In this document: piece after piece, positions 20,176-43,976 of the stretch
Layout of the letters: every line of letters starts with the position of its first letter
Numbering within the stretch: position 1 is the first letter of the stretch
Assembly: GCF_018413605.1 (NCBI RefSeq)
Contig: NZ_JAHCDN010000001.1
Coordinates: forward strand, 1,550,001 to 1,614,000
Source: Variovorax sp. PCZ-1
GTDB taxonomy: Bacteria; Pseudomonadota; Gammaproteobacteria; Burkholderiales; Burkholderiaceae_C
DNA length: 64,000 bases
Direction of reading: 5' to 3'
Notes under the pieces: model-generated
Seen by the model: only the letters and a program-made list of their open reading frames with translations
Databases searched by the model: none
What the model was told of the DNA's origin: nothing
Made by a program: the position numbers and the translations under genes

Positions 20176-20286
20176 ATGCAAATATTCTCAGCAAGCAGAT
20201 CGAGAAGCTCGATCTTAGGGCCGCTCACCAGCGGCGCAGGTGGCAGCCCAGCACCGATTTTGGGAGGCTGCAATGAGCTCTCCTAA
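20176..20286 (+). CDS. Possible 36-residue leader peptide upstream of the molybdoenzyme genes
   Basis: A short frame starting at ATG 20176 after a strong CAGGAGAT ribosome-binding site. It encodes 36 residues, Ser/Arg-rich at the start and Gly/Pro-rich later (ILGPLTSGAGGSPAPILGG), and stops at 20284-20286, 14 bases inside the next gene. The overlap suggests translational coupling with the Fe-S subunit. I do not recognise the peptide. It may be a leader, a small subunit or simply chance; the good ribosome-binding site is the main support. Confidence 0.45.
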   Translation: MQIFSASRSRSSILGPLTSGAGGSPAPILGGCNELS

Positions 20287-24791: not shown

Positions 24792-24928
24792 AGAGCTCCT
24801 TTTTGTTGCAATGAAAACTACTGTATCCGTAAAAAGTGTTGTGAAGTAAAGCTGATCTAATTTAAATCTGGAACATGAGTTGTTGCGCTGACATTTACAC
24901 GCCAAGATCGTTGCAGAAATATGCTCTT

Positions 24929-25036
24929 TAGCATGCGCCGCGAAAAGTGGGGTCAGAGCCCAATTTCGTCTGAGTTTGAATTCGCGCCGGAGAGTTGAAT
25001 GTCTTGAATTGGGATCCGACCCCAGTTTTCGCTCGG
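24929..25036. repeat. Right palindromic pair flanking the orphan gene (REPIN-like)
   Basis: AGCATGCGCCGCGAAAAGTG followed by GGGTCAGAGCCCAATTTCGT mirrors the left inner arm with about two differences over 40 bases. CTTGAATTGGGATCCGACCC (25003 onward) mirrors the left outer arm. Bases 24792-24928 carry the 5' region of the orphan gene and no other gene. Confidence 0.85.
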
Positions 25037-25045
25037 TCTTCGTCA

Positions 25046-25100
25046 CTACTAATTCAATAGCGCCTCGCGCAGTATTTATGCCGGCGAGTGAAGGTTTTTG
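25046..25100 (-). repeat. Dispersed palindromic repeat, copy 7 (reverse)
   Basis: ACTACTAATTCAATAGCG, CTCGCGCAGTATTTATGCCG. It lies just downstream of the last transporter gene of the selenium island. Confidence 0.88.
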
Positions 25101-25125
25101 CCTTTAAAATCAATAAAAAAATGAG

Positions 25126-25959
25126 CTATCGCTGCATCCAGCGCCTAGACAGATAACTCAGCGCATCGACCAAAGCCACCAGCGCGAGCATAGCCAGCAA
25201 GATCGTGGATGTCTTGCTCATTTGGAACAAGCCCATGTGGAAGGCGAGCATTTGGCCTAGGCCGCCACCGCCGACGACGCCTAGCACGGCGGCTGCGCGA
25301 ATGTTGTTTTCCCAGCGGTAGAGGGTGTAGCTCATGAGCTGGGGGATGATTTGGGGGAGCGTGGCATACCAGAAGATGCGGGCCTCAGACACGCCTCGGG
25401 TGCGCAGCGCGAAGGCTGCTCCGGGGGGCGCATTCTCTATGCTTTCGGCGAACAATCTACCGAGCACGCCTGCGGTGTGAAGGCCTAGAGCAAGCGTGCC
25501 TGCGAAGGGGCCAAGGCCAGCAGCAATCAGCAGGAGTGCTGCCCACACGAGCTCGGGGATGCTGCGCAGGGCGTTGAGCAGCAAGCGGGCTGGGCCTTTG
25601 AAATAGGCTTTGTCGGCTTCGTGCGTTTTGCTGGCTGGCAAGGCGAGTAGCAGGCCGAGGATGGCGGCGATGATGGTGCCGAGGAGTGACATGGCTAGCG
25701 TTTCTAGCGATGCCGTCCACAGCTTGTCGATGAAACGAGAAGAGAAATCTGGTGTGAGCAGCTCGCCGATGAATTTGGCCATGAGCTTGGCGGATTCGAG
25801 GCTGAAGAGCTGCGCCCATTGCAAGTTCAATGTCCAGAAGCTGGCTACGGTGAGCACGATGAGGCCGAAGACGAACCAGCAGGCTTTGCAGCGTGCATCA
25901 AAGAGCTTAGGCGGCAATTTGTACACCTCGTTCGCAGCCTCTTTAGGAAAGGAATTCAT
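25126..25959 (-). CDS. PhnE-family ABC permease 2 (putative selenate/phosphonate-type transporter)
   Basis: A 277-residue inner-membrane permease with about six helices and the binding-protein-dependent signature near 195-260 (RSIPELVWAALLLIAAGLGP, RWENNIRAAAVLGVVGGGGL). It is the second of two adjacent PhnE-like permeases, which presumably form a heterodimeric channel. The ATG at 25959 overlaps the upstream permease stop and has AAGGAATTGGG before it. It belongs to the operon with the PhnC-like ATPase and the selenate-type binding protein. Confidence 0.88.
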   Translation of the reverse strand: MNSFPKEAANEVYKLPPKLFDARCKACWFVFGLIVLTVASFWTLNLQWAQLFSLESAKLMAKFIGELLTPDFSSRFIDKLWTASLETLAMSLLGTIIAAILGLLLALPASKTHEADKAYFKGPARLLLNALRSIPELVWAALLLIAAGLGPFAGTLALGLHTAGVLGRLFAESIENAPPGAAFALRTRGVSEARIFWYATLPQIIPQLMSYTLYRWENNIRAAAVLGVVGGGGLGQMLAFHMGLFQMSKTSTILLAMLALVALVDALSYLSRRWMQR

Positions 25960-26792
25960 CCCAATTCCTTTCGCAGCCAAGAACTCGCGCGATCAGCGAG
26001 CCAAACGAGCAGCATGAAAACGAGCAGCAGCGTAGCAACTTCGCCTCCTTTGAACATTTTCATCGAGGTATCAAGCTGCTGCCCTAAGCCGCCCGCGCCC
26101 ACGAAGCCGAGCACGGCGCTGGAGCGGATGGCGCATTCCCAGCGATAGACCGTGTAGCTCGTGAGCTCGGCGGCGTTTTGCGGGAGCAGGCCATAGAAGA
26201 AGGATTGCAAGCGCCCTCCTCCATTGCGCATGAGCGATTGCGTGGCATGCGCTTCGCCGCTTTCTAAAATTTCGGTGTAGACCTTGCCGAGCATGCCCGC
26301 ATACGTGAGCGCGATGGCGAGCACACCCGCAGTCGGCCCTAAGCCAACGACGCGCACGAACACGAGCGCCCACACGAGCTCGGGCACGCTGCGCATAACG
26401 ATAAGCAACCAGCGGATGGCTTGGCGAAAGATGCTGGGCAGGAAGGCCATCTTGCCTGAGAGGGCTGAGACGGATAAAGCCGATGTGCCGAGCAAGGTGA
26501 GCGGGATGGCGAGAAGCAATGCCAGCGCGATACCAGCGGTGGCCACAGCGACTGTGCGCCAGGTTTCTTTGGCGACGAGGGTTAAAAATTCTTTGTCGTG
26601 TGCTGGTGGGAAAAAATCGCCGAGGAAATTGCCCATCACCTTGCGGCTCTCGGGATGCCAGAGCAGCCAAGGCTTGAATTCGGTGGTAACGAGCAGCGGC
26701 CAGAGCAGCAACAAAGCGGCAATGCTCCAGAAGACGCGGCTTTGCCAAGCTGGGTCTCTTTGCGCTGGAGCGGTTAATACAACACTCATCAT
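25956..26792 (-). CDS. PhnE-family ABC permease 1 (putative selenate/phosphonate-type transporter)
   Basis: A 278-residue permease, paralogous to its neighbour: MRSVPELVWALVFVRVVGLG and RWECAIRSSAVLGFVGAGGL align with the same blocks there. About six membrane helices. The start codon at 26792 overlaps the ATPase stop (TGATG), so synthesis is coupled. Two permease genes for one ATPase is a frequent variant of PhnE-type systems. Substrate is inferred from the binding protein and the selenium context. Confidence 0.88.
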   Translation of the reverse strand: MMSVVLTAPAQRDPAWQSRVFWSIAALLLLWPLLVTTEFKPWLLWHPESRKVMGNFLGDFFPPAHDKEFLTLVAKETWRTVAVATAGIALALLLAIPLTLLGTSALSVSALSGKMAFLPSIFRQAIRWLLIVMRSVPELVWALVFVRVVGLGPTAGVLAIALTYAGMLGKVYTEILESGEAHATQSLMRNGGGRLQSFFYGLLPQNAAELTSYTVYRWECAIRSSAVLGFVGAGGLGQQLDTSMKMFKGGEVATLLLVFMLLVWLADRASSWLRKELG

Positions 26793-27631
26793 CAGCGGCA
26801 ATGCATCACAGCAGGTTGGCCGGGCTGCGCGTTTTGCTCAGGGAATTCGTTCACTGGCGCTGCGCCGAAAAGCTCGTCTTCATGTTGGGCGTAGAGTGCT
26901 CTGAGTTTGTCTTGAGTCACTTGGGCTGCAGGCAGATCAAACGCCACTTCGCCATCTCGCAAACCGAGAATGCGGGGAAACGCTTCTAAAGCGCGCTCGA
27001 CTTGGTGCAGCGTGCAAACAAGAGTAGCACCGCGAGCTTTGGCCTCGCGCGTGAGCACTTGCAGTGCTTGCGTGGCGCGCGTAGGGTCAAGCGCGGACAA
27101 AGGCTCATCAACCAGCCACAGTTTGGCATTTGATGCGAGCAGCCGCGCTAAGCCTACGCGCTGGCGCTCGCCGCCAGAGAGGCGATCTACGCGCTCAAAA
27201 ATCTTCTCATCCAAATCAAAGGCTTTCAAAGCCTGATGTGCGGCGGGAATATCGCTCGGATAAAACAAAGAGCGCAAGCTAGAAGCTAGGCTCATCTGAG
27301 GTAAGCGGCCAGCGAGCACAGCAGTGACGACTCTTTGACGAGGCGGCAGCGGAGGAACTTGCGGCGCGAGAAACAGCTCACCGCGCAGCTCTTGCAAAGC
27401 TGAGCGGGGCAAGCTCCAAGGGTTTTGAGCACCAATTAGCAATTCACCACTGGCAGGCTGCAAAGCGCAGGCCACGGCATGCAAAAGCGTCGTCTTGCCC
27501 GCGCCAGAAGGCCCGATCACGGCGATTTGCTCACCCGCTTGAAGCTGCACATTCGCACCACGCAGAGCTGGCACGGAATTGCCCTTGGCTGCCGGGTGGC
27601 GGGCGCTTAACTGTTGGAGTTGTAATTGCAA
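26792..27631 (-). CDS. PhnC-family ABC transporter ATP-binding protein
   Basis: An ABC ATPase with Walker A IGPSGAGKTTLL, signature LSGGERQRVGLARLL, Walker B LWLVDEPLSALDP and switch LHQ. It energises the two PhnE-like permeases. The start is uncertain. There is no in-frame ATG near the front; a TTG at 27631 places the start where the family alignment begins (LQLQLQQLSA). The frame is open to a TTG at 27691, but that would put a terminator-like hairpin inside the coding region. Length from 27631 is 279 residues. Confidence 0.85.
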   Translation of the reverse strand: MQLQLQQLSARHPAAKGNSVPALRGANVQLQAGEQIAVIGPSGAGKTTLLHAVACALQPASGELLIGAQNPWSLPRSALQELRGELFLAPQVPPLPPRQRVVTAVLAGRLPQMSLASSLRSLFYPSDIPAAHQALKAFDLDEKIFERVDRLSGGERQRVGLARLLASNAKLWLVDEPLSALDPTRATQALQVLTREAKARGATLVCTLHQVERALEAFPRILGLRDGEVAFDLPAAQVTQDKLRALYAQHEDELFGAAPVNEFPEQNAQPGQPAVMHCR

Positions 27632-27650
27632 AGCTGAACCTAGAGTAGAA

Positions 27651-27682
27651 AGAGAAAAGCGCGGCAAGCATGTGCCGCGCTT
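27651..27682 (-). terminator. Hairpin terminator/attenuator between binding-protein gene and ATPase gene
   Basis: On the minus strand AAGCGCGGCA and TGCCGCGCTT form a 10-bp GC-rich stem around CATGCT, followed by TTCTCTTTCT. It lies 16 bases past the binding-protein stop. Such placement usually lets a binding protein be made in excess over its ATPase and permeases. Confidence 0.75.
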
Positions 27683-27697
27683 GTACTTCAAACGATA

Positions 27698-28564
27698 TTA
27701 AAGCAGACCAGCGCTCTTGGCAGCAGTTTCCAGACCTTTGTAATTCTCAGGCTTGGTGGGCACATAGCGAGTTGCGCGGTTCAGCGTGAGGATTTCTTTG
27801 CCTTCTGCGGTGTTTGGATCGAGATCCAGCAAAGCCTTCATTACACGCTCGCGCATGGCGGCGGGCATATCAGCATGCACGCTCCAGTTGTAATTGAAAT
27901 ATGGTGGTGTGGTGTAGAACACATCAACGGCCTTGGTATCGACCTTGTTTTCGCTCACGAATTTTTTCCAGACTGTGATATCGAGTGCAGCTGCAGCCAC
28001 ACGGCCGCTCACCACGGAGGCAATCGTGGCATCATGCGCGCCAGAGAAGGCGACGCGCTTGAAATCTTTTTCTGGATCAATCTTCGCTTCGAGCAAGAAA
28101 TTGCGTGGCATCAAATGGCCAGAAGTAGAGCTTTGTGAGCCGAAGGAGATTTCTTTGCCCTTCATATCAGCCAAAGTCTTGATGCCGGAATCCGTCTTGG
28201 CGATGAAAACGGATTGAAAGCGCGTATCTTCTTCGCGCTGCGCAATCGGGATGATCTTGCCGCCCGAGCGCAGATTGGCTTGCACATGCGTGAAGCCGCC
28301 AAACCACACCAAATCCACCCGCTTATTCACCAGCGCTTCCACTGCGGCTGGGTAGTCGGTCACGGGGGTGAACTCGACCTTCATTCCTAGTTTCTTTTCC
28401 AAATACGTTGCAATCGGCGTGAACTTGCGTACCTGCTCAGTGGCAGCTTCTTCAGGAATGGTGGTGACGCGGAAAACTTGCTGCGCATGACTTATGGCGC
28501 CGAAAGTGAGGATGGCGCAGGTCATTAGGCATTTGAAGGTGCGAGAAGGTGAAAAGTCAATCAT
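27698..28564 (-). CDS. PhnD-family periplasmic binding protein, putative selenate-type
   Basis: A 288-residue exported binding protein (signal peptide TFKCLMTCAILTFGAISHAQ). The mature start FRVTTIPEEAATEQVRKFTP, then VDLVWFGGFTHVQA, SFGSQSSTSGHLMPRNFLL and VFYTTPPYFNYNW, follow the PhnD fold. From memory they match the branch labelled putative selenate ABC transporter substrate-binding protein better than true phosphonate binders. Gene context supports this: the divergent neighbour begins a selenoneine gene set. The ATG at 28564 gives a normal signal peptide. Phosphonate or phosphite uptake remains an alternative. Confidence 0.8.
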   Translation of the reverse strand: MIDFSPSRTFKCLMTCAILTFGAISHAQQVFRVTTIPEEAATEQVRKFTPIATYLEKKLGMKVEFTPVTDYPAAVEALVNKRVDLVWFGGFTHVQANLRSGGKIIPIAQREEDTRFQSVFIAKTDSGIKTLADMKGKEISFGSQSSTSGHLMPRNFLLEAKIDPEKDFKRVAFSGAHDATIASVVSGRVAAAALDITVWKKFVSENKVDTKAVDVFYTTPPYFNYNWSVHADMPAAMRERVMKALLDLDPNTAEGKEILTLNRATRYVPTKPENYKGLETAAKSAGLL

Positions 28565-28597
28565 GGAAAAATCCCTAGGAATAAAGGTTAGACAAGT

Positions 28598-28616
28598 CCT
28601 GTCGAATAAGGACAGG
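28598..28616. promoter_or_regulatory. Inverted repeat in the binding-protein/egtD intergenic region
   Basis: CCTGTC-GAATAAG-GACAGG is a 6-bp inverted repeat with a 7-base spacer, 34 bases upstream of the binding-protein ATG and within the 158-base region shared with the divergent egtD. It could be an operator or a 5' leader hairpin. No known selenium-responsive motif is recognised. Confidence 0.4.
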
Positions 28617-28722
28617 CCGTTATTACACCGCGAAACAGCGTTTTTTGCAGGCGGGGGAAGCGATGGCATCCAAACTACACTGTCTTGCGTAAGATACGTT
28701 AACTTTAAAACGACTCCAACAG

Positions 28723-29709
28723 ATGACAACGCCTCAGTTTTATCAGCTTCATGATTCCAACAGCACCGCCGTGAAAGCAGCCATTCGCGCCGAGCTCACG
28801 GAAGGTTTGCTCAAACCCCAAGCCGCTGTCTCCCCCAAATACCTGTATGACGCTTTAGGCTCACGCCTGTTTGATGCGATTACTGAGCTGCCCGAGTATT
28901 ACCCCACGCGCACTGAAGGCACGATTATTGCGCAGCATTTGACGGCGATTGCGCAGCAGACTCCCAAAGGCGCGGCCTTGATCGATCTGGGCGCGGGGAG
29001 CTGCGAAAAAGCGGCGAGGCTTTTTGAAGCACTCAAGCCCGCGCACTACATCCCGATTGATATTTCTGTGGAATACCTGCGCCAAACGGTGCATTGCCTG
29101 CAGCGCGAATACCCGCAAATGCGCATGAGCGGCGTGGGCATGGATTTTTCTTCGGAGATGCTGCTGCCGGCTGAGCTGATGGCGCAAATTAAAGGTTTAC
29201 CAATTGTGGTGTTCTACCCCGGCTCCAGCATTGGCAATTTCGCGCCCGAGGACGCGCGCGCCCTGCTCTCGCGTGCGCATGCGCTGTGCAAGCTCGGAGG
29301 CGCAGGCAGCGGGCTCTTGATTGGCGTGGATTTAGTCAAGCCCTCTGAGATTTTGGAGCCGGCTTACGACGATGCGCTGGGCGTGACGGCTTCTTTCAAC
29401 CTCAACATGCTGCTCAACATCAATAACCTCTTGGGCAGCAACTTTGCGCCGCAAGATTGGCAGCATGTGGCCTTCTTTGACAAGCAGCTCTCGCGCATCG
29501 AAATGCATCTACAAGCCAAACATGATGTGACAGTGACTTGGCCAGGTCATACCCGTGAATTCAAGCGCGGCGGAGATATTCACACCGAAAACTCCTACAA
29601 ATGGACGATTTCTGGCTTTGCTGATTTGCTGCAATCCGCCGGCTTTTCCAAGCCCACGAGCTGGACAGATGCGAAAGATTGGTTTTCCGTGCACTGGGCA
29701 TCCACTTGA
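28723..29709 (+). CDS. egtD: L-histidine N-alpha-methyltransferase (hercynine synthase)
   Basis: EgtD trimethylates histidine with three SAM to give hercynine, the betaine precursor of both ergothioneine and selenoneine. At 328 residues it has the family start KYLYDALGSRLFDAITELPE followed by YYPTRTE, the SAM site IDLGAGSCEKA, PIDIS, YPGSSIGNF and the closing HTENSYKW, whose Glu and Ser correspond to histidine-binding residues in mycobacterial EgtD. It starts at ATG 28723, divergent from the transporter operon, and leads toward the SenA/SenB/SelD genes. Confidence 0.93.
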   Translation: MTTPQFYQLHDSNSTAVKAAIRAELTEGLLKPQAAVSPKYLYDALGSRLFDAITELPEYYPTRTEGTIIAQHLTAIAQQTPKGAALIDLGAGSCEKAARLFEALKPAHYIPIDISVEYLRQTVHCLQREYPQMRMSGVGMDFSSEMLLPAELMAQIKGLPIVVFYPGSSIGNFAPEDARALLSRAHALCKLGGAGSGLLIGVDLVKPSEILEPAYDDALGVTASFNLNMLLNINNLLGSNFAPQDWQHVAFFDKQLSRIEMHLQAKHDVTVTWPGHTREFKRGGDIHTENSYKWTISGFADLLQSAGFSKPTSWTDAKDWFSVHWAST

Positions 29710-29721
29710 TACGATAGAGGG

Positions 29722-30660
29722 ATGCAACGCTTGGCATCCACACCACTGATCACTCGCCGCACAGCCGTTCTTAGCGCGGGCTTTGCGCTCGCTGGCTGCT
29801 CGGTGAATCCAGACTACAACCACACGGCGGAAGACTCCCCCAGGCAGTTGATCACAGCAAGAGGCAAAGCGCTGCGAAATATTTGGGTGCTCTCATCTGG
29901 CGGGCCACGTGGCTTTGTACATGTGGGCGTGCTCAAGGCGCTGGAAGAGCTGGGGCATCAGCCCGACATGATTGTGGGCGGCTCAGTGGGCTCGCTGGTG
30001 GGTGCGCTCTATGCGGGCGGCGTACGCGCTAAGGAGCTGGAGCAAATGTCCCTTGATTTGGGTGTGATGGATATGGGGCGACTCGCACTCACGGGCGATG
30101 GCAAATTCACTGGCTCGCCGCTGGCGGCTGTTGTGAACCGTGAACTCCTGCAGCGCTGCGGTACTTGCGAGATGCAAAAACTTCCCATTGCATTTGCTGC
30201 TGCGGTGGTGGAACGGGAATCGCGCAAAGCGATGTTGCTCAATCATGGCGATGCAGGCGTGGCGGTACAGGCCAGTTGCGCGATTGAGGGCACGTTCACG
30301 CCCGTGCGCATTCGTGGAATGCAATACGTGGATTCGGATTTGGTGGCGCCCATGCCGGTGCGGCTCTCGCGGGAATTGGCTGTGGCCACGAATGGCGCGG
30401 CAAGCTCGGCGCTGAAGCTGCTCGCGATGGATGCCTCCGCTCGCCCAGAAACTGCGCCACAAGGCGTGGAGCGATGGCGCGATGGCGATTTGCGCAAGCG
30501 CGCTTTGATTGCGCCTGATGCAGCTGTTGCCAGCCTTGTGTTGCACCCTGAAATGAGCTATTTTGTGAATGTGAGCAAAGAATTTCGTTTGCGCACCATT
30601 GAAGACGGCTACCGGGGCACGATGGCACAGGCGGAGAAAATCAAGGCGGTGCTGAGTTAG
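29722..30660 (+). CDS. Patatin-like phospholipase lipoprotein
   Basis: A 312-residue lipoprotein (lipobox LAGC, Cys26) with the patatin hydrolase core: oxyanion hole SSGGPRGFVHVGVLKAL (58-74), nucleophile Ser88 in GGSVGS and a catalytic-Asp region YVDSDLVAP. The dyad looks intact, so lipid acyl hydrolase activity is plausible. It follows egtD by 12 bases and is probably co-transcribed with it. No link between patatins and selenium or ergothioneine is known to me. Its 3' end overlaps the convergent SMR gene by 20 bases. Confidence 0.88.
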   Translation: MQRLASTPLITRRTAVLSAGFALAGCSVNPDYNHTAEDSPRQLITARGKALRNIWVLSSGGPRGFVHVGVLKALEELGHQPDMIVGGSVGSLVGALYAGGVRAKELEQMSLDLGVMDMGRLALTGDGKFTGSPLAAVVNRELLQRCGTCEMQKLPIAFAAAVVERESRKAMLLNHGDAGVAVQASCAIEGTFTPVRIRGMQYVDSDLVAPMPVRLSRELAVATNGAASSALKLLAMDASARPETAPQGVERWRDGDLRKRALIAPDAAVASLVLHPEMSYFVNVSKEFRLRTIEDGYRGTMAQAEKIKAVLS

Positions 30661-31042
30661 CGGTCACGGGCTTTTCGCTCACCTGCATGCGCGAAGCCGC
30701 ATGCAAACCAAATACACCAATCACGATCAGCGAAATACTCGCGAGCTTGATGGCGGTGGCCGCTTCTTTGAAATAGTAAATGCCAATCAAGGCAGTGGCA
30801 ATCGTGCCCACGCCGCTCCACACGGCATAAGTCACGCTCAGATCAATGGTTTTGATGGCCATGGTGTTGCAGGTGAAGGCCAAGGCGTAGAAGGCAAACA
30901 TCGCCACTGAAGGCACGGGCCTCGTGAAGCCTTGCGAGAGTTTCATACAAGTGGTGCCCATCACTTCAAAGGTGATGGCGATGGCTAGCAGCGTCCAGGC
31001 TTGCGAGAGGGTGGGCGTGAAGGCTTGGATGGCTTTGAGCAT
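30641..31042 (-). CDS. Small multidrug resistance (SMR/EmrE-type) transporter
   Basis: A 133-residue membrane protein with four helices and the SMR hallmark Glu (E26 in AITFEVMGTTCMKLSQGF), followed by LAFTCNTMAIKTIDLSVTYA VWSG and GIYYFKE blocks. SMR proteins exchange protons for cationic or zwitterionic compounds. The polar C-terminal tail is longer than in EmrE. It lies 17 bases downstream of senA on the same strand, so it could be co-expressed with it and might export a betaine such as selenoneine; that last point is only inference. Confidence 0.88.
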   Translation of the reverse strand: MLKAIQAFTPTLSQAWTLLAIAITFEVMGTTCMKLSQGFTRPVPSVAMFAFYALAFTCNTMAIKTIDLSVTYAVWSGVGTIATALIGIYYFKEAATAIKLASISLIVIGVFGLHAASRMQVSEKPVTANSAPP

Positions 31043-31059
31043 GAAAAATCTTATCGTTG

Positions 31060-32265
31060 TCAGAGAGCGCAGGTTCGGAAACCAGCATAAATATCAGTAC
31101 GCTCCGGAGTGAAATAGTTCCGATAGCGCGGGTTTCTCATGATGGGCAGCGTGGCCGCGCATGCACCGCGCAACACTTTTCGGCTGCCAAACCAAGGCTC
31201 TGAGTAATCTCGGTAAGGATGCGCTTGGAAGCCATCGTAGGGCTGGAAATCGCTTGAAGTCCATTCCCAGACATCTCCCCAAGCAAAGCTGGACTCAGAT
31301 ATCGCTGCATATTCCCACTCAGCCTCAGAAGGCAGCCTGCGCCCAGCCCAGAGGCAATAGGCCTGCGCATCGTGCCAGCTCAAATGCACGGCACTGGTTT
31401 GTAAATCCAGAGCAAGCCATTGGCCAAATTGTAGGTTTTCGTAGCCAGCGGATGCCTTGCGGAGATAGCGCGGCAGCGCATGCTGCGTGGCTTGTACGAA
31501 CTCAAGATACTGCTCCCATCGCACGGGCTTGGCGTCGATCTCAAAGGCCGCAAGCTTGGCGGTTTGCCCCGAAAGCTCATTGTCAAAAGAAAAACCTACT
31601 TCAGGGGATCCCAGCTTCCACGAGGTATTTTTTATGGAAAAACGACTGATAGCCGGCATGGAATCTGCGCGAAATGCTATTGAATTGATAGTATCTATGC
31701 TACCAGCAGGTAACTCTATGCGCTGCTGCAGAGCCTGCGCCATGTACACCGCCGCTTCAATATGCATGGCTTCATGCAGTAAAACGAGGCGGTAAAAATA
31801 CAAATCGTCATCGCTTTTGCCCGCTTGGTTCAAGCATTGCAGAGTTTGCGCTAGCGTGGCTTGCAAATAAGCCTTGGCCGCTTGCGAGTCAAGCAAAGGC
31901 AGCTCCCAACGCCTGGCGTGATGCACAGTGGAGCTGTTGTACCAATCATCGCCATGGTGGGCGGCCTGCAGGTGCGGGCAAGGCAGGCGGGCATGCTCAG
32001 GATCACAAGCTGTGCCCATATGCCTTTGCTGATTGCGCCCGATCCACCATTGCTGAAACCAGCCAATATGCCCCAGCTCCCACAGCGGCGGGTTGAATTC
32101 ATCGCCCTGCGGCACATCCAAAGCCTTGGCGGCTTCGTATGCTTCAAACAGCGCCAGCGTGATGCCGCGCACGCGCACCAGCTCTTTGCTAAGAGTGGCA
32201 GCGTCCGATGTGCGTATCATCTGGCCTGGAGTTTGCTGAAGCGTTATGCCGATGCGCGCATTCAT
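31060..32265 (-). CDS. senA: Selenoneine synthase SenA (EgtB-like)
   Basis: A non-haem iron enzyme related to EgtB: an N-terminal DinB-like four-helix domain joined to a C-terminal FGE-sulfatase domain. The likely iron ligands are H66 (ELGHIGW) and the H164-x3-H168 pair (LLHEAMHIEA). The C-terminal domain has RRLPSEAEWEYAA, DVWEWTSSDFQPY and MRNPRYRNYF. SenA oxidatively joins a selenosugar to hercynine. Adjacency to SenB and SelD favours SenA over EgtB. Residues 190-208 come from an in-frame palindromic repeat. I use the ATG at 32265 (401 residues); an ATG at 32220 is equally plausible and would leave 68 rather than 23 bases to senB. Confidence 0.85.
   Translation of the reverse strand: MNARIGITLQQTPGQMIRTSDAATLSKELVRVRGITLALFEAYEAAKALDVPQGDEFNPPLWELGHIGWFQQWWIGRNQQRHMGTACDPEHARLPCPHLQAAHHGDDWYNSSTVHHARRWELPLLDSQAAKAYLQATLAQTLQCLNQAGKSDDDLYFYRLVLLHEAMHIEAAVYMAQALQQRIELPAGSIDTINSIAFRADSMPAISRFSIKNTSWKLGSPEVGFSFDNELSGQTAKLAAFEIDAKPVRWEQYLEFVQATQHALPRYLRKASAGYENLQFGQWLALDLQTSAVHLSWHDAQAYCLWAGRRLPSEAEWEYAAISESSFAWGDVWEWTSSDFQPYDGFQAHPYRDYSEPWFGSRKVLRGACAATLPIMRNPRYRNYFTPERTDIYAGFRTCAL
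31650..31693 (+). repeat. Dispersed palindromic repeat, copy 8 (forward), inside senA
   Basis: AGCCGGCATGGAATCTGCGC then ATGCTATTGAATTGATAGT. It is read on the opposite strand as DTINSIAFRADSMPA between the two SenA domains. Confidence 0.9.
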
Positions 32266-32288
32266 TGATTTAAAAATTCTTCCCAAAA

Positions 32289-33242
32289 ATGTCTTCTGTC
32301 GTGATCATCAGCCCTGCTTTGTCAGATGCCAACAATGGCAACTGGCAAACCGCCAAGCGTTGGGCGCAGATGCTTAGCAAACAGCATCGTACTCGCATCA
32401 CAAAGCATTGGCAGGCTTCAGATGTGTCGGATGAGATCATGATTGCCTTACATGCTCGCCGAAGCGCTGACTCGATTGCCGCTTGGCATGCCCTTCGTGG
32501 CTCTCGCGGCTTGATTGTGGCACTGACTGGCACCGATCTCTACCGCGATATACAGATGGATACGCAAGCACAGGCCTCTTTGGATGCAGCGGGGCAGCTG
32601 ATTGTGTTGCAAGAGCTGGGAATCAACAGCTTGCCCAAGCAGCATCGCGGTAAAACCAGCGTGGTGTTTCAGTCCACCACCTCCCGTAAAACCTTGGCCA
32701 AGACAGATAAGCATCTCAACGCAGTGATGGTCGGCCACCTGCGCGACGAAAAAATGCCGCAGACTTTGTTTGAAGCGGCTCGTTTACTCAAGCATGAGAA
32801 AGATATCCGCATCACCCACATTGGCGCAGGCTTGGATGAAAAGCTCGCGCAAGATGCTATCAATACAGAAGCGCTTTGCGCAGGATACATATGGGCTAGA
32901 GGCCTAAAACATGCTCAAACCCGGCAACGCATCCAGCGCGCCCATGTGCTCGTCCATACCAGCAAGATGGAAGGCGGCGCGCATGTGATCATGGAGGCCG
33001 TGTGCAGCGGCACGCCGGTGCTTGCTTCGCGCATGGATGGCAATGTGGGCATGCTGGGCGGTGGCTATGACGGTTATTTCCCTGTGGGTGATGCCTCAGC
33101 ATTGGCTGCTTTGCTGCGCCGTTGTAAGAACGAACCTACTTTCCTAGACCATCTATCATCCCAATGTGCGCTGCGCGCCCCACTCTTTTCTCCGCTTTCC
33201 GAACAAACGGCTTTGCTGCAACTCGTGGCAAAAGCCCAATAA
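32289..33242 (+). CDS. senB: Selenosugar synthase SenB (glycosyltransferase)
   Basis: A 317-residue GT-B-type glycosyltransferase matching the SenB family: start VVIISPALSDANNGNWQTAK, LHARRSADSIAAWH, VALTGTDLY, and the C-terminal HTSKMEGGAHVIMEAVCSGT with DGNVGMLGGGYDGYFPVG. SenB couples selenophosphate with a UDP-sugar to make a selenosugar, the Se donor for SenA. It starts at ATG 32289, divergent from senA, and stops eight bases before the SelD fusion, so these two are probably one transcript. A weak repeat-like stretch lies near 32855. Confidence 0.9.
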   Translation: MSSVVIISPALSDANNGNWQTAKRWAQMLSKQHRTRITKHWQASDVSDEIMIALHARRSADSIAAWHALRGSRGLIVALTGTDLYRDIQMDTQAQASLDAAGQLIVLQELGINSLPKQHRGKTSVVFQSTTSRKTLAKTDKHLNAVMVGHLRDEKMPQTLFEAARLLKHEKDIRITHIGAGLDEKLAQDAINTEALCAGYIWARGLKHAQTRQRIQRAHVLVHTSKMEGGAHVIMEAVCSGTPVLASRMDGNVGMLGGGYDGYFPVGDASALAALLRRCKNEPTFLDHLSSQCALRAPLFSPLSEQTALLQLVAKAQ

Positions 33243-33249
33243 ACAACAC

Positions 33250-35538
33250 ATGCAAACTTCAGATCAGCCCATCCTGCGCGACATCGTTTTAATTGGCGGA
33301 GGCCACAGCCATGTGGGTGTGCTCAAAAGCTTTGGCATGAATCCGATCCCCGGTGTGCGGCTCACCTTGATCTGCACCGATCTCCACACGCCCTACTCCG
33401 GCATGCTGCCCGGCTATGTGGCGGGGCATTATGAGTTTGACGAAGTGCATATTGATCTGCTGCGCTTGGCGCAGTTTGCAGGCGCGCGGGTGTATCGCGA
33501 TGAAGTAATTGGCATTGATCGCGGCCAGCAAAAGGTGCTGTGCAAAAGCCGCCCTGCTGTGCCTTACGACCAACTCTCGATCAATATTGGCTCTACGCCG
33601 CAGTTGCAAGGTGTGCCGGGAGCCACTGAGCATGCAGTCGCCGTCAAACCGATTCGTAATTTCAATGACCGTTGGCTTCAGCTTTTAGAGCGCGTGAAGA
33701 ATCACGCAGGTAAGACGACGATTGCCGTGGTGGGTGCTGGCGCAGGCGGCGTGGAGCTGTTGCTTGCTATGCAATTCCGTTTGCGCAACGAATTGACCAA
33801 GCTCTATCGCAATCCAGACGAACTCACATTTCATCTGCTCTCTGCGAACGAAACAATCTTGCCCACACACAACGCTCGCGTGCGCGAGACCTTCTCAAAA
33901 GCCCTGCGTGAGCGTGGCGTGCAAGTACATCTGAGCAGCGAAGTCACGCAAGTGCAAGCGGGCAAGCTCATCACCTCCAGCGGCAAAACGCTAGATGCCG
34001 ATGAAATCATCTGGGTCACACGCGCAGGCGGCGCGGCATGGCTCAAGCAAACCGGCTTGCAGCTCGACAAGGAAGGCTTCATCGAAGTCAAAGACACGCT
34101 GCAAACGGTGACCGATCCGCTGATTTATGCAGCGGGCGATATTGCGAGCATGGTGAATTACAAGCTGGAAAAAGCAGGCGTATTCGCCGTGCGCATGGGC
34201 AAGCCGCTCACCGAGAATTTGCGCCGCGCAGTAGGCGGTACAGACTTGCAAGCCTATTCGCCACAAACCAGTTGGCTCGCGCTCATCAGCACGGGCGACA
34301 AATACGCCGTCGCCTCACGCGGTTGGCTTGGCTTTGCTGGCGCGTGGGTTTGGCAGTGGAAAGACTGGATCGATCAGCGCTTCATGCGCAAGTTCAGCGA
34401 GTTTCCTGATATGAGCCAATCTGCACCTGCGCCAGCAAGCAATGCCCTTGCTAACGTCAAACTCAGCTCGGAAGAATCCCTGCAAGCCATCTCCGCCATT
34501 GCCATGCGCTGCGGTGGCTGCGGCGCGAAAGTGGGTGCAACGATTTTGCAGCGCGCTTTGGGTAATCTGCACCCCGTACAAAGAGACGATGTGCTCATCG
34601 GCCTCAAAGACCCAGATGATGCCGCCGTCGTGCGCGTGCCGCCCGGCATGGCCGTGGTGCATTCAGTAGATTTCTTCCGCGCGTTTGTCGATGATCCCTA
34701 TATCTTCGGTAAAGTCGCCGCCAATCATTCGCTGGGCGACATTTGGGCCATGGGCGGCATCGCGCAATCCGCCACCGCTGTTTGCACCGTGCCACCGGGC
34801 ATGGATGCAAAGGTCGAAGACGTGCTCTTCCAGATGATGACAGGCGCGCTTGAAGTGCTCAATGAAGCCGATTGCTCCCTCGTGGGCGGGCACACGGGCG
34901 AAGGCAAAGAGCTGGCGCTTGGCTTTGCGGTGAATGGCTTGATTGAAGACAAGCCCGAAGCAGTCTTACGCAAAGGCGGCATGAAGCCGGGCGATGTACT
35001 CATCCTCACCAAGCCGATTGGCACAGGCACTTTGTTTGCGGCCAAAGATCGCTTGTTTGCCAAAGGCCGCTGGATTGATGCAGCTCTCACCAGCATGGTG
35101 ATCAGCAACCGCACGGGTGCAAAAATCCTGCGCGAGCACGGCGCAACAGCCTGCACAGATTTAACGGGCTTTGGCTTGCTCGGCCATTTGGTCGAGATGA
35201 CGCGCCCTTCTGAGGTGGATGCAGAAATCCACATGGGCGCCCTGCCCTTGCTCGATGGCGCGCAAGAATGCGTGCAAGCGGGTATCACGAGTTCTTTGCA
35301 AAGCGCCAATGTACGCCTGCGCAGAGCGCTACGAAATCAAGAGCAATTTGTGAACCATCCGCGTTACCCGCTCATATTTGATCCGCAAACTGCTGGTGGC
35401 CTGCTGGCGAGCGTGCCCGCAGAACAAGTAGATGCCTGCATTGAGCAACTCAAAGCACAAGGCTATCCCCACACCACAAAAATCGGAAGAATATTACCGC
35501 AAGGCGATGCGTTGGAGCCGATCGTTCTTGTTGATTAA
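33250..35538 (+). CDS. selD: Selenide, water dikinase fused to NADH-dehydrogenase-like flavoprotein (SenC role)
   Basis: A 762-residue fusion. Residues 1-375 form an NDH-2-like FAD protein (DIVLIGGGHSHVGVLKSF, VVGAGAGGVELLLA, IYAAGDIASM). Residues about 418-762 are selenophosphate synthetase with catalytic C424 and K427 in RCGGCGAKVG, then LVGGHTGEGKELALGF, CTDLTGFGLLGHLVEM and DPQTAGGLLAS. The Cys form is used, not selenocysteine. SelD makes selenophosphate from selenide and ATP; the flavoprotein half may supply reduced selenium. In the selenoneine pathway this is SenC. I use ATG 33250, eight bases after senB. Confidence 0.93.
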   Translation: MQTSDQPILRDIVLIGGGHSHVGVLKSFGMNPIPGVRLTLICTDLHTPYSGMLPGYVAGHYEFDEVHIDLLRLAQFAGARVYRDEVIGIDRGQQKVLCKSRPAVPYDQLSINIGSTPQLQGVPGATEHAVAVKPIRNFNDRWLQLLERVKNHAGKTTIAVVGAGAGGVELLLAMQFRLRNELTKLYRNPDELTFHLLSANETILPTHNARVRETFSKALRERGVQVHLSSEVTQVQAGKLITSSGKTLDADEIIWVTRAGGAAWLKQTGLQLDKEGFIEVKDTLQTVTDPLIYAAGDIASMVNYKLEKAGVFAVRMGKPLTENLRRAVGGTDLQAYSPQTSWLALISTGDKYAVASRGWLGFAGAWVWQWKDWIDQRFMRKFSEFPDMSQSAPAPASNALANVKLSSEESLQAISAIAMRCGGCGAKVGATILQRALGNLHPVQRDDVLIGLKDPDDAAVVRVPPGMAVVHSVDFFRAFVDDPYIFGKVAANHSLGDIWAMGGIAQSATAVCTVPPGMDAKVEDVLFQMMTGALEVLNEADCSLVGGHTGEGKELALGFAVNGLIEDKPEAVLRKGGMKPGDVLILTKPIGTGTLFAAKDRLFAKGRWIDAALTSMVISNRTGAKILREHGATACTDLTGFGLLGHLVEMTRPSEVDAEIHMGALPLLDGAQECVQAGITSSLQSANVRLRRALRNQEQFVNHPRYPLIFDPQTAGGLLASVPAEQVDACIEQLKAQGYPHTTKIGRILPQGDALEPIVLVD

Positions 35539-35559
35539 CCAACACTCTTTCTTCAAGCT

Positions 35560-35617
35560 GTTCGCCCTGAGCTTGTCGAAGGGCTCTTTGGGGCTTCGAC
35601 AAGCTCAGCCCGAACGG
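35560..35617. repeat. CTTCGACAAGCTCAG inverted repeat, copy 2
   Basis: GTTCGCCCTGAGCTTGTCGA pairs with TCGACAAGCTCAGCCCGAAC across a short loop. It lies 21 bases after the SelD fusion stop and may end that transcript. Confidence 0.9.
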
Positions 35618-35640
35618 CTGGCTTGCGCTACGATGGTGGG

Positions 35641-36543
35641 ATGAACACACAAGTTGCATCTCAAGTTGGTTTGATCGGCCTCGGTGCCATGGGCAGCGGT
35701 ATGGCGGGCTCGCTATGTCGTAAAGGTCATGCGCCCTATGTTTTTGATGTGCGCAGTGAAGTAGCGCAAGCCTTTGCCACGCAAGGCGGCACAGCATGCT
35801 CATCTCCTGCAGAGCTCGCTAAGAACTGCCAAGTCATCATCTCAGTCGTGGTGAATGCAGCGCAGACAGAAAGCGTGCTCTTTGGTGAGAATGGCTGCGC
35901 CAGCGCCATGAAACCCGGCAACGTCTTCGTGATGTGCTCCACCGTCGATCCCAATTGGTCGATTGCCCTCGAAGCTCGCCTAGAAAAGCTCGGCATTCTC
36001 TACATCGATGCACCCATCTCCGGCGGCGCAGCGCGCGCAGCCAGCGGCGAGATGACGATGATGAGCGCTGGCAAGCCTGAGGCCTACGCGATTGCTGAGC
36101 CATTCCTAAGTGCGATGGCCGGCACGCTCTACAAGCTGGGTGACAAAGCTGGCGCAGGCAGCAAAGTCAAGGTGATCAATCAACTGCTCGCAGGCGTACA
36201 CATCGCAGCAGCCGCAGAAGCCATGGCGCTCGGCTTGCGCGAAGGTGTCGATCCCGCAGCGCTGTACGAGGTGATCACGCACAGCGCGGGCAACAGCTGG
36301 ATGTTTGAAAACCGCATGGCCCATGTGCTCGCGGCGGATTACACGCCGCTCTCCGCCGTAGATATCTTCGTGAAAGACTTAGGTCTCGTGCTCGATATGG
36401 CCAGAGCCAGCAAATTCCCTTTGCCACTCTCCTCCACAGCGCACCAAATGTTCATGCAAGCCTCCACCGCCGGCTTTGCCAAAGAAGACGACAGCGCCGT
36501 GATCAAAATCTTCCCCGGTATCGATTTGCCTAAAAAGGTATGA
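35641..36543 (+). CDS. ltnD: L-threonate dehydrogenase-like 3-hydroxyacid dehydrogenase
   Basis: A 300-residue NAD(P)-dependent enzyme of the 3-hydroxyisobutyrate dehydrogenase family: Rossmann motif GLIGLGAMGSGMAGSL, substrate loop DAPISGGAARAASGEMT and the catalytic Lys region KVKVINQLLAGVH. LtnD oxidises L-threonate at C2 to give the 2-oxo acid that OtnI and OtnK process; those genes lie 8-10 kb downstream in the same orientation, which supports this assignment. The ATG at 35641 follows GGTGGG. Another member of the family is possible on sequence alone. Confidence 0.82.
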   Translation: MNTQVASQVGLIGLGAMGSGMAGSLCRKGHAPYVFDVRSEVAQAFATQGGTACSSPAELAKNCQVIISVVVNAAQTESVLFGENGCASAMKPGNVFVMCSTVDPNWSIALEARLEKLGILYIDAPISGGAARAASGEMTMMSAGKPEAYAIAEPFLSAMAGTLYKLGDKAGAGSKVKVINQLLAGVHIAAAAEAMALGLREGVDPAALYEVITHSAGNSWMFENRMAHVLAADYTPLSAVDIFVKDLGLVLDMARASKFPLPLSSTAHQMFMQASTAGFAKEDDSAVIKIFPGIDLPKKV

Positions 36544-36555
36544 TCAGAGTTTTGC

Positions 36556-36605
36556 TCTCAATTTCGTAGCACTCCGCGCAGATTCTCTGCCGGTGATTGA
36601 CTGTT
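36556..36605 (-). repeat. Dispersed palindromic repeat, copy 9 (reverse)
   Basis: CTCAATTTCGTAGCAC, CCGCGCAGATTCTCTGCCGG. It lies in the gap between ltnD and the operator of the next operon. Confidence 0.85.
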
Positions 36606-36696
36606 TTCGTCCAATTTCCGACCCTCTTTTGTACGATTTTCCGTATTTCCTAGGGTAAATACCTGCATCAATGTATTCTTCATTAGCAATTTAACG

Positions 36697-36726
36697 TATA
36701 CATTATCATTAATGCATACATTAATG
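36697..36726. promoter_or_regulatory. Candidate GntR operator upstream of the acid-sugar operon
   Basis: A near-perfect palindrome ATTAATG-CATA-CATTAAT (36708-36725) is preceded by TATACATTA (36697-36705), a direct repeat of CATACATTA. It sits 23 bases before the SMP-30 start and upstream of the gene for a GntR/FCD regulator, so autoregulated control is likely. Confidence 0.6.
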
Positions 36727-36748
36727 AACGCTTGACGAATACAGAGCC

Positions 36749-37753
36749 ATGAGTGCCAGCAACAACGCCGTACAAGAACAGAGTCTATCGCTGAGTTTGA
36801 AAGCTTGGACAGGGCTTGGCTTGGTTAGGCCAGAATGTGTGCTCGCAAACTCGCGGGGGGATCTGTTTACCGCCGATTGGCGCGGTGGAGTGGCGCATAT
36901 GCATTCGGATGGCAGCCAGACCTTCTACGCTGCACAACCTATAGATGGCGAAGTTCTCAAGCCTAATGGCATCGCGTTGCGCAAAGATGGTTCGTTTTTG
37001 CTAGCGCATTTGGGCGCTGAGCTGGGCGGCGTGTTCAGCTTGCAGCGTGACGGGAGCACACGGCCAGTGCTCAGGGAAGTCGACGGTATCGCCCTGCCCC
37101 CGACCAACTATCCGCTTGAAGATGCGCAAGGTCGACTGTGGATCACCATCAGCACCCGCCTCAAGCCCCGCGCTCTAGGCTACCGTAACACCTGCAGCGA
37201 TGGCTTCATCGTTTGTATGGATGATCCTAACGATCCGAAAAGCGCCCGCATCGCCGCTGATGGCCTAGGCTACACCAATGAAATCGCCTTCGATCCCACT
37301 GGCCAATGGCTGTATGTGAACGAAACCTTCACGCGCCGTCTATCGCGCTTCCCCGTACGCCCAGATGGCAGCTTGGGCAGCAAAGAAGTTGTCACCGAGT
37401 TTGGCGCGGGCACCTATCCTGATGGCATGGCTTTTGATGTGGAAGGCCATGTGTGGATCGTGAGCATTGTGAGCAACCGCCTGATTCGCGTATCGCCATC
37501 GGGTGAGCAGACGATTTATCTAGAAGATGTCGATGCCAATCATCTCGCTTGGGTGGAAGAGGCCTATCAAAGCCACAGCATGGGTCGCCCGCATTTGGAT
37601 GGTGTGAAATCCAAGCAGCTTAGCAATATCTCCAGTCTGGCTTTTGGCGGGAAAGATTTGCGCACAGGCTATCTGGGCTGCTTGCTGGGCGAGAGCTTGG
37701 CAACCCTGCACATGCCCGTAGCTGGCCATCCACCGATTCATTGGAATTATTGA
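36749..37753 (+). CDS. SMP-30/gluconolactonase-like protein
   Basis: A 334-residue beta-propeller protein. It opens with LVRPECVLANSRGDLFTADW (18-37) and shows repeated strand-turn units, including YTNEIAFDPTGQWLYVNETF and YPDGMAFDVEGHVWIVSIV, where the conserved Glu, Asn and Asp bind a divalent metal. SMP-30 proteins hydrolyse aldonolactones. As first gene after the operator it would open a lactone form of the sugar acid before oxidation. It overlaps the frame of the regulator gene by a few bases only if the latter starts early. Confidence 0.85.
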   Translation: MSASNNAVQEQSLSLSLKAWTGLGLVRPECVLANSRGDLFTADWRGGVAHMHSDGSQTFYAAQPIDGEVLKPNGIALRKDGSFLLAHLGAELGGVFSLQRDGSTRPVLREVDGIALPPTNYPLEDAQGRLWITISTRLKPRALGYRNTCSDGFIVCMDDPNDPKSARIAADGLGYTNEIAFDPTGQWLYVNETFTRRLSRFPVRPDGSLGSKEVVTEFGAGTYPDGMAFDVEGHVWIVSIVSNRLIRVSPSGEQTIYLEDVDANHLAWVEEAYQSHSMGRPHLDGVKSKQLSNISSLAFGGKDLRTGYLGCLLGESLATLHMPVAGHPPIHWNY

Positions 37754-37764
37754 GGACCTTCAGC

Positions 37765-38457
37765 ATGACCGCACTGCGCCACAGTAACAAAGACATGGAA
37801 AGCCTGCCACTTGCAGAGCAGGCTTATCAAGAGATTCGTTCCCGTATTCTGGACAACCTTTGGACGCCCGGCTATCAAGCTTTGGAGCAAGAGGTGGCTC
37901 TCGCCTTGGGCATGAGCCGCACGCCAGTGCGTGAAGCCCTGATGCGTTTGCAGCAAGAGGGTTTGGTCGAGGTCGCTCCACGGCGCGGAATGCGCGTCTT
38001 GCCCGTCTCGCCCACAGATATGCGTGAGATTTATGAAATTCTCACTGCGCTGGAATGCATGGCTGCCGAAATCTTGGGCAAGAGAAAGCCTTCTCAACAA
38101 GAGCTTAAGCCTCTGGTGGAAGCCACTCAATTGATGGAAGCTGCTCTCGTGCGCGAAGATTTGGATGCTTGGGCGAAAGCAGATGAAACCTTTCACCTCG
38201 CTTTGGTGAAACTCGCTGGCAACCGCATGCTGCTGGAAACTGTGATGGGCTACTGGGATCGCGCGCACCGCGCCCGGATGTTCACGCTACGCCTGCGCCC
38301 CAAGCCAGTTAACTCGACCAAAGAACATATGCAGCTCGTGGACATGCTCGCCGCTGGCGATGGCGCAGGTGCTGCGCAGGTCAACCGCAGCCACCGCGAA
38401 CGTGCCAGCCGCGAGCTGCTAGCGATTTTTGAGCGCTACCAGCTCCAGCAACTTTGA
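37765..38457 (+). CDS. GntR family transcriptional regulator (FCD subfamily)
   Basis: A 230-residue repressor-type protein: winged helix-turn-helix at 15-80 (QAYQEIRSRILDNLW, GMSRTPVREALMRLQQEGLV) and an FCD ligand domain with Asp/His metal-site residues (DETFHLALVKLAGN). It probably senses a sugar acid or its breakdown product and controls this operon through the palindrome at 36708-36725. The ATG at 37765 follows GAGGA and lies 11 bases after the lactonase stop. Confidence 0.93.
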   Translation: MTALRHSNKDMESLPLAEQAYQEIRSRILDNLWTPGYQALEQEVALALGMSRTPVREALMRLQQEGLVEVAPRRGMRVLPVSPTDMREIYEILTALECMAAEILGKRKPSQQELKPLVEATQLMEAALVREDLDAWAKADETFHLALVKLAGNRMLLETVMGYWDRAHRARMFTLRLRPKPVNSTKEHMQLVDMLAAGDGAGAAQVNRSHRERASRELLAIFERYQLQQL

Positions 38458-38482
38458 AATCTCACTTCTTTCGGATTCTTGA

Positions 38483-40686: not shown

Positions 40687-40730
40687 GCCCCAATTCTTTG
40701 CCCGTTTGATTTTTACAGAAGGAGACTCTC

Positions 40731-41744: not shown

Positions 41745-41769
41745 GCAAGCAGACAAGGAAATCACCCAA

Positions 41770-42327: not shown

Positions 42328-42351
42328 AAAAGACTATTAACGAGAGTCGTC

Positions 42352-43644: not shown

Positions 43645-43958
43645 TGAGTTCAAAACGAGCTAGCACCATGTTTGTCGTCACCGTAGATTTTCACATCCAC
43701 CCCGGCCAGATGGAGAGCTTCATGCCAAGCATGTTGGCCAATGCCCAAGCCTCGCTCGATCTGGAGGAGAACTGTTTGCAATTTGATGTGTGCATTGCCG
43801 CAAATGATGCAAATCATGTTTTTTTGTACGAGATTTATCGCACCAAAGAAGACTTTGATGCACATTTGAAGATGCCTCATTTTCTGGATTTCAATACACG
43901 CACTGCCCCTCAAATCATCAGCAAAATGGTGCACACTTTCAACCGGATAGACTCTTGA
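43644..43958 (+). CDS. Antibiotic biosynthesis monooxygenase (ABM)-fold protein
   Basis: A 104-residue ferredoxin-like fold protein: FVVTVDFHIHPGQMESFMPS, LEENCLQFDVC and FLYEIYRTKEDFDAHLKMPH. Many such small proteins are quinol monooxygenases or aldolase-like helpers in catabolic operons; the function here is unknown. The ATG at 43644 overlaps the dctM stop, but an ATG at 43668 fits the family start better. Confidence 0.82.
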   Translation: MSSKRASTMFVVTVDFHIHPGQMESFMPSMLANAQASLDLEENCLQFDVCIAANDANHVFLYEIYRTKEDFDAHLKMPHFLDFNTRTAPQIISKMVHTFNRIDS

Positions 43959-43976
43959 GTGCAAAAGGAGCTTTGA

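Follow-up and report, generated by a model that had tools for sequence, protein, structure and literature searches.

The biosynthesis of selenoneine, an antioxidant that contains selenium, is ascribed to sen, a three-gene cluster, in PMC9814287 and in the accessible parts of PMC10891094 and PMC10702425, and the reactions of SenA, SenB and SenC are known for the family. The words 'EgtD' and 'transporter' are absent from these three texts, as far as the accessible parts of the latter two extend, the founding Nature 2022 paper lying outside that comparison. Here we consider a locus of Variovorax sp. PCZ-1 in which both a hercynine synthase and an importer accompany the sen genes. It occupies positions 25126-35538 of the window, that is, of the whole 64-kb stretch that was analysed (contig NZ_JAHCDN010000001.1, positions 1,550,001 to 1,614,000), and its open reading frames (ORFs) were scored against curated NCBIfam cut-offs and Pfam domains. 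From left to right, two PhnE-type permeases, a PhnC-like ATPase and a substrate-binding protein of the family TIGR04553 are encoded on the minus strand, followed by egtD and a patatin-like gene on the plus strand, an SMR-family gene and senA on the minus strand and, finally, senB and a fusion of an NADH-oxidoreductase-like domain with SelD on the plus strand. The island is a genuine selenoneine (sen) locus, extended and one of many such, and it probably brings its own selenium supply, the TIGR04553 importer, together with selenoneine biosynthesis. Because the same order is present in many other genera, the island is more than a chance assembly.

The identity of the enzymes is given by the curated models. 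EgtD, the histidine trimethyltransferase or hercynine synthase (28723..29709, plus strand), scores 365.3 bits against TIGR03438 (cut-off 290.9) and is the single match in the genome, whereas no EgtB over cut-off was found there. SenB, the selenosugar synthase (32289..33242, plus), scores 440.6 bits against TIGR04348 (cut-off 300) and, aligned to 8k5u, keeps K158 and the EGGAHV motif, the residues named for Variovorax SenB in the accessible part of PMC10891094. The fusion protein (33250..35538, plus; SelD in its Cys form, GGCGAK) exceeds the cut-offs with both halves (TIGR03169, 521.8 bits against 310; TIGR00476, 290.5 against 125), and its start is probably the ATG at 33250, 7 bases past the SenB stop, rather than the upstream GTG at 33166. 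SenA, the selenoneine synthase (31060..32265, minus), reaches 436.6 bits with NF041186 (cut-off 420) and only 182 bits with the EgtB model TIGR03440 (cut-off 360); among solved chains it matches SenA (8k5i/8ryz) with 355 bits, OvsA with 125 and EgtB with 80. Although its longest ORF reaches 32286, the gene probably starts at the ATG at 32265; the divergent starts of senA and senB are then some 23 bases apart. A tree of 134 rows separates 29 EgtB rows from 105 SenA-type rows with a support of 100 in the Shimodaira-Hasegawa-like approximate likelihood-ratio test (SH-aLRT) and places the window's SenA inside a 61-row set that includes the Variovorax SenA (SH-aLRT 96). The phylogeny suggested in an earlier note on this DNA thus groups the EgtB-like protein with the solved Variovorax SenA and not with EgtB; the identities which that note had given to EgtD, SenB and the SelD fusion stand as well, all being over curated cut-offs, and each gene it had named is an ORF at or near the place it gave. 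The same contig carries another SenA-like gene at about 1.371 Mb (L142 9771-11108), far from SenB; its protein scores 397.2 bits, below the SenA cut-off of 420 and far below that of EgtB, and is placed among the SenA-type rows, outside the 61-row set.

The SelD fusion is the sole SelD over cut-off in the genome, and it scores 440.1 bits against TIGR04369, the model of 'not SelD' fusions, short of the cut-off of 700. Elsewhere the genome encodes MnmH, the 2-selenouridine synthase (337.9 bits, cut-off 219.75), taken as the marker of the 2-selenouridine trait; SelA, taken as that of the selenocysteine trait, gave no match in this genome. With one SelD and MnmH present, a role of the fusion as a dedicated SenC was rejected, and the protein probably serves both the selenoneine and the 2-selenouridine routes. 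In three other genomes (G210, G307 and G550) the SelD gene has one in-frame TGA each, and these are probably selenoprotein forms.

This layout is an established locus type across the Comamonadaceae and their relatives, of which the window is one member. In a sample of 200 genomes from the window's family, SenB occurs in 71; by their curated cut-offs, TIGR04553 is present in 88, EgtD in 131 and SenA in 70. SenB and TIGR04553 are common to 55 genomes and lie at most 15 kb apart in 43, SenB and EgtD are common to 62 and close in 31, and all three lie within 15 kb in 23 of the 71 SenB genomes (the SenA list of this co-location analysis includes about ten rows below cut-off). The joining of senABC to egtD and an importer, which had seemed distinctive, is therefore common. 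Likewise, among named sen loci (the best 80 of 272 by SenB), 50 have at least 9 kb of left and 2.4 kb of right flank, and within 9.5 kb these hold SelD (47), EgtD (39), SenA (37) and the binding protein (27); all four are present in 18, of which 16 share the window's arrangement of strands and 2 have a permease that lies beyond the sequence in view. SelD is directly beside SenB in 45 named loci, in the fused form in 34 of them. Throughout the locus comparisons the absence of a gene means a BLAST miss with the window, E. coli or G113 protein, and divergent copies may be overlooked; L061 and G113 are apparently one genome, as are L103 and G131, and identical sequences were dropped before the trees and kept in the named-locus counts. 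Curated scores and recurring linkage together support a selenoneine pathway with its own hercynine synthase, as the earlier note proposed, but its statement that all steps are present was too strong, no island gene being known to reduce an oxyanion to selenide.

Some loci depart from this type. Six (L068, L070, L083, L093, L121 and L126, from Curvibacter, Hylemonella and a Burkholderiales genome) show a row of EgtD, SenB and SelD with no SenA found in view, and two EgtB-EgtD loci (L258 and L259, from G118 and G017) have a SelD-like match of 145-160 bits a few kb off and no SenB or TIGR04553 match. The binding protein of L123, whose record title is Akkermansia muciniphila, sits among Limnohabitans-type ones, and L094, entitled Bordetella parapertussis, is a similar sen contig; the title of L123, and perhaps that of L094, may be wrong.

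The importer is identified chiefly by its binding protein (27698..28564, minus), which scores 362.3 bits against TIGR04553 (cut-off 250) and 169.6 bits against the PhnD model TIGR03431, below the cut-off of 261.1. Adjacent are the PhnC-like ATPase (26792..27691, minus; TIGR02315 180.7 bits, below 266.1; ABC_tran 90.4), permease 1 (25956..26801, minus; TIGR01097 208.3 bits, slightly below the cut-off of 216.7) and permease 2 (25126..25980, minus; 262.5 bits with the same model). The real start of the ATPase is probably further inside its ORF, to judge by the sister-genome protein, which begins MQLQLQ. In 65 of the 88 family genomes with TIGR04553 over cut-off, SenB, SelD, MnmH, SelA or SelB lies within 10 kb of it (SelD in 58, SenB in 43, MnmH in 17, SelA in 6 and SelB in 4), and a further eight have EgtD as the only such neighbour, for a total of 73. 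As a control, none of six sub-cut-off Phn-type clusters has any of these genes in about 20 kb; these are six of seven such places, the seventh adjoining an over-cut-off copy in G058 (L168), a locus that likewise yielded no selenium gene. Of 388 genomes sampled from the phylum, 34 have TIGR04553; SelD is present in 32 of these and in 90 of the 354 without (Fisher p 1e-15; p-values here are uncorrected for kinship), and outside the window's family the figures are 25 of 27 and 87 of 350. A Sphaerotilus plasmid has mnmH, ATPase, permease, TIGR04553 and selD in this order, all in one direction, and on a Paracoccus plasmid the TIGR04553 gene points away from those of formate dehydrogenase and from selA and selB; these are the two records inspected in their annotation out of 82 plasmid records with a match. 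Gene identity, conserved linkage and the co-occurrence of importer and SelD are thus observations, and as linkage they suggest that the TIGR04553 importer brings in selenium; the cargo, and which oxyanion it would be, we infer. To our knowledge, bacteria have no proven dedicated selenium importer.

The nature of the ligand can be approached through the nearest solved relatives, the picocyanobacterial PhnD1 proteins 7s6g (E 1.3e-55) and 5lq5 (E 6e-44). In 7S6G, phosphate is contacted by Y44, S124, T125, S126, H156, D203 and Y204, the capping Y204 leans on D11 and N174, and a water is bound through T65 and S123 (PMC10284923). Aligned to 7S6G, the window's protein keeps the contacts as Y71, S146, T147, S148, H177 and Y225 and has E38, D195 and N224 in place of D11, N174 and D203, so that of the ligand contacts only D203 is changed. 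Both pocket types occur in the 88 family genomes: 65 have Asp, Asn and Asp at positions 11, 174 and 203 (D/N/D), 22 have Glu, Asp and Asn (E/D/N) and one is partly unreadable; the remaining mapped positions are kept, barring one S123A and one cut sequence. With the three columns masked, the E/D/N triple forms one clade of 48 unique sequences, with a single change and SH-aLRT 100. SenB is present in 21 of the 22 E/D/N genomes, the exception being incomplete, as against 34 of 65 D/N/D genomes (Fisher p 2e-4, uncorrected for kinship); in 15 of the 22 it is in the locus itself, which rules out a pocket exclusive to sen loci by position, and two of the 22 loci are beside selA/selB. Pocket type shows no clear link to a fused or separate SelD (E/D/N, 9 alone and 5 fused; D/N/D, 20 and 6). 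EgtB is in the island in 4 of 22 E/D/N and 0 of 65 D/N/D loci, a pattern set aside because the D/N/D named loci L067, L106 and L127 also hold EgtB. Beyond the family, N203 occurs together with D11 and N174 in three sen-linked loci that belong to a single distant genus, Asp203 is retained in two further sen-linked loci, and one Asn203 locus comes from a genome with no SelD at the threshold applied. Phosphate- and sulfate-binding proteins differ in that the former offer an acid group to a protonated ligand and the latter donors only to an ionised one. The matching Asp205 of Prochlorococcus PhnD is taken as a sign of monoanion binding in PMC5700983. By this reasoning Asn203 and Asp203 would differ in the ligand charge preferred: the window's pocket is predicted to favour a fully ionised dianion, selenate at neutral pH, and the Asp-type pocket to suit a protonated monoanion, hydrogen selenite or phosphite.

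Several observations weigh against a selenium importer and its selective pocket. In an alternative reading, the importer carries phosphite, phosphate or a small phosphonate, in line with the in vitro ligands of its PhnD1 relatives, and stands beside selenium genes through shared regulation or by chance. The TIGR04553 name may itself rest, we presume, on such selenium-gene neighbourhoods, and label and linkage may therefore not be independent. No selenium gene or EgtD accompanies 15 of the 88 family loci, four of them at contig ends; outside the family, SelD is within 10 kb of TIGR04553 in 9 of 27 genomes and SenB in 5; and no selenium query exceeds 80 bits in 18 of 28 phylum-sample loci (27 outside the family and one inside; 28 of the 34 TIGR04553 genomes, the other six being already among the 88). 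The aligned stretches of 7s6g and 5lq5 pass the TIGR04553 cut-off with 337.1 and 298.6 bits, and PhnD1 proteins bind phosphite (0.05-4.3 uM), phosphate (7.4-182 uM) and, in all but one, methylphosphonate (accessible part of PMC10284923). The family thus includes proven phosphorus-oxyanion binders whose contacts the window keeps bar D203, and 'selenate' is therefore a family name rather than a tested substrate. The literature searched shows no selenium transport or binding measured for a TIGR04553 protein and yielded no title on the family or on a selenoneine-linked importer, the phrase 'putative selenate ABC transporter' occurring in one bioremediation paper. A cautionary precedent comes from Methanococcus maripaludis, which could use the selenium sources tested without any need for five selenium-regulated loci of putative transporters, one of them with a phosphonate-annotated permease (PMC11097638). 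As regards the pocket, SenB is within 10 kb in 28 of 65 D/N/D loci and Asn at 203 is reported in some picocyanobacteria (PMC10284923, in part), so that sen loci do not require the change and it is not confined to them; moreover, the triple has a single origin in the family, and part of its tie to SenB reflects common descent. We nevertheless regard a phosphorus cargo as unlikely: it leaves unexplained the selenium genes within 10 kb of 65 of the 88 family loci, the tie to SelD across the phylum and the lack of such linkage in all six control clusters. Moreover, the PhnD1 authors report that two strains failed to grow on phosphite or methylphosphonate, and deem the affinities for both fortuitous and the transporter's presence paradoxical (PMC10284923). 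The letters 'selen' are absent from that paper and from the PtxB/HtxB paper, and selenium ligands are therefore not discussed in the main texts. The selenate-type importer of the earlier note accordingly keeps its family, over cut-off and tracking selenium genes, while its substrate remains a label; in the profile comparison proposed there TIGR04553 passed and PhnD failed, and yet two solved members of the family bind methylphosphonate as well as phosphite and phosphate, so that the refuting outcome named in that note, a grouping with phosphonate binders, is half borne out.

Even if selenium is the cargo, the two pockets could differ by neutral drift and carry the same oxyanion, to which we give an even chance: both are found at equivalent positions of sen loci, accompanied by similar permeases, and the triple has one origin in the family, Asn203 being found in some picocyanobacteria too. 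The identity of the triple in all 48 unique sequences of the clade argues against drift, as do the Asn203 of the three sen-linked loci of a distant genus and the monoanion reading of the Prochlorococcus Asp (PMC5700983, in part). A different doubt attaches to the product, since SenA is a homologue of EgtB and the protein clears the SenA cut-off by only 16.6 bits; an EgtB-like protein making ergothioneine or another sulfur product is, however, very improbable in the face of the EgtB score, of the tree and of the divergently adjoining senB, whose enzyme disfavours thiophosphate 10-20-fold (PMC10702425, accessible part). The SMR and patatin genes, finally, may be unrelated passengers, and here the chances are only a little below even. 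The patatin-like lipoprotein (29722..30660, plus; lipobox LAGC, GGSVG; PF01734 77.2 bits) and the SMR protein (30641..31042, minus; PF00893 91.8 bits), whose gene starts 17 bases past the senA stop on the same strand, have counterparts in none of the 50 well-flanked named sen loci and in one of 20 EgtB-EgtD loci fetched. Against this, SMR, methyltransferase, EgtB and patatin recur together in four genera (G113, G063, G011 and G199), the first three genes running in one direction in three of these genomes; in addition, the SMR protein seems to belong to the quaternary-ammonium group of its family, which is the chemical class of the trimethylammonium betaines hercynine, ergothioneine and selenoneine.

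In the sister genome G113 the island has the window's order, except that SMR and SenA are separated by two further genes, for a methyltransferase and a true EgtB (553.6 bits); both genes (L141, G113:C80:15000-34861, 14027-15967) are missing in the window. One EgtD could there feed sulfur and selenium branches alike. The one-direction SMR, methyltransferase and EgtB genes are beside the importer in G063 and G011, with patatin near, and in G199 this set, there accompanied by EgtD, lies apart from SenB and TIGR04553; in a locus of G009 a patatin relative adjoins, without SMR, and on a Brachymonas contig EgtB adjoins SenA. The most economical account has the window's lineage losing the methyltransferase and EgtB while retaining SMR and patatin. 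The SMR protein appears Qac/Ebr-like rather than SugE-like (EbrB 88.9 bits, SugE 69.8; the Pfam SMR domain is present and no curated model is over cut-off, the best being 88.9 against 160); its chemistry and its neighbours allow the guess, and no more, that it moves trimethylammonium betaines. The earlier note had described both genes as not known to be pathway members; this agrees with most sen loci, which lack them, and less well with their recurrence beside EgtB and methyltransferase in other genera.

On the selenoneine reading with its own importer, the PhnCDE-type TIGR04553 system would take up a selenium oxyanion, which cell thiols, perhaps aided by the NADH-oxidoreductase-like domain, would reduce to selenide. 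The fused SelD would convert this to selenophosphate, probably also for MnmH elsewhere in the genome; SenB would make the selenosugar from selenophosphate and a UDP-sugar, EgtD would make hercynine from histidine, and SenA would couple the two to selenoneine. In this genome the sulfur branch of EgtB and methyltransferase is missing, and its companions in other genomes, SMR and patatin, are still there. A wider proposal, which we advance tentatively and which as a whole is rather doubtful, is that TIGR04553 systems are the missing dedicated selenium importers of Proteobacteria, for selenocysteine, selenouridine and selenoneine, that residue 203 reads protonation (Asp for hydrogen selenite, Asn for selenate) and that picocyanobacterial PhnDCE is likewise a selenium importer. 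A binding protein tied to selenium genes in most sampled genomes, with two pocket types and solved relatives, makes the importer gap assayable by binding, and linkage and pocket data together make the choice between selenite and selenate directly testable for one bacterial candidate. If this is confirmed, genomes of organisms that actively gather selenium could be recognised by the family, and the phosphorus role given to abundant marine transporters would come into question. Genomes in which EgtB and SenA adjoin and draw on one EgtD point to a possible fork between sulfur and selenium that lineages can gain or lose.

Regulatory sites are less distinct. A divergent spacer of 158 bases (28565..28722), compared with that of relatives, separates the binding-protein gene from egtD; a palindrome in it is found in the window and sister only and, being absent from 13 other loci compared, was rejected as a conserved element. 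A short ATTA(C/A)A(C)C-like stretch, seen by eye and uncounted upstream of the binding-protein gene in many of 15 loci, could be a promoter element or operator. A hairpin 3' of the binding-protein gene (27657..27682, minus; 10 pairs, T-rich tail) is a candidate partial terminator from a consensus scan, which over 24900-36800 gave no excess of promoter-like sites (5 against 5.6 expected) and little of terminator-like ones (17 against 15.0 in shuffles). Scans of the window with Rfam (gathering threshold) and for tRNA gave no match. Adjoining the island is a pair of iron-sulfur and molybdopterin oxidoreductase genes (20240-23703) with no curated family over cut-off; the molybdopterin enzyme (21061-23703) was considered as an island selenate reductase and rejected, both on that ground and because the 8 kb flank of the sister-genome island holds no ORF of its size. 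Downstream (35623-45242), L-threonate dehydrogenase, 3-oxo-tetronate kinase and a TRAP permease are over cut-off and indicate sugar-acid use, with no evident tie to the island.

Several known systems can be compared with the locus. With the ergothioneine pathway of EgtB and EgtD it shares EgtD and the SenA fold, and the sister island keeps the true EgtB that the window's genome lacks over cut-off. With the picocyanobacterial PhnDCE (PhnD1; 7S6G, 5LQ5) it shares the pocket contacts but one: these proteins have Asp203 and phosphite as best ligand, whereas the window has Asn, beside sen genes, and so departs from the Asp203 contact of phosphite and phosphate binders, though some picocyanobacterial PhnD1 also have Asn. 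Like the 'putative selenate' importers of NCBIfam TIGR04553, whose substrate is likewise putative, it has the over-cut-off binding protein with PhnC and PhnE partners, but its E/D/N pocket differs from the three solved proteins aligned. The fusion has the same two parts as the NADH oxidoreductase-SelD fusions (COG1252-SelD) of the accessible part of PMC2432076, differing in its place directly after senB. The senABC cluster of Variovorax paradoxus DSM 30034 likewise has SenA, SenB and selenophosphate synthetase in one locus, and the window's proteins match the solved SenA and SenB chains; to this the window adds egtD and the TIGR04553 importer, and its SelD is a fusion, the only SelD of its genome.

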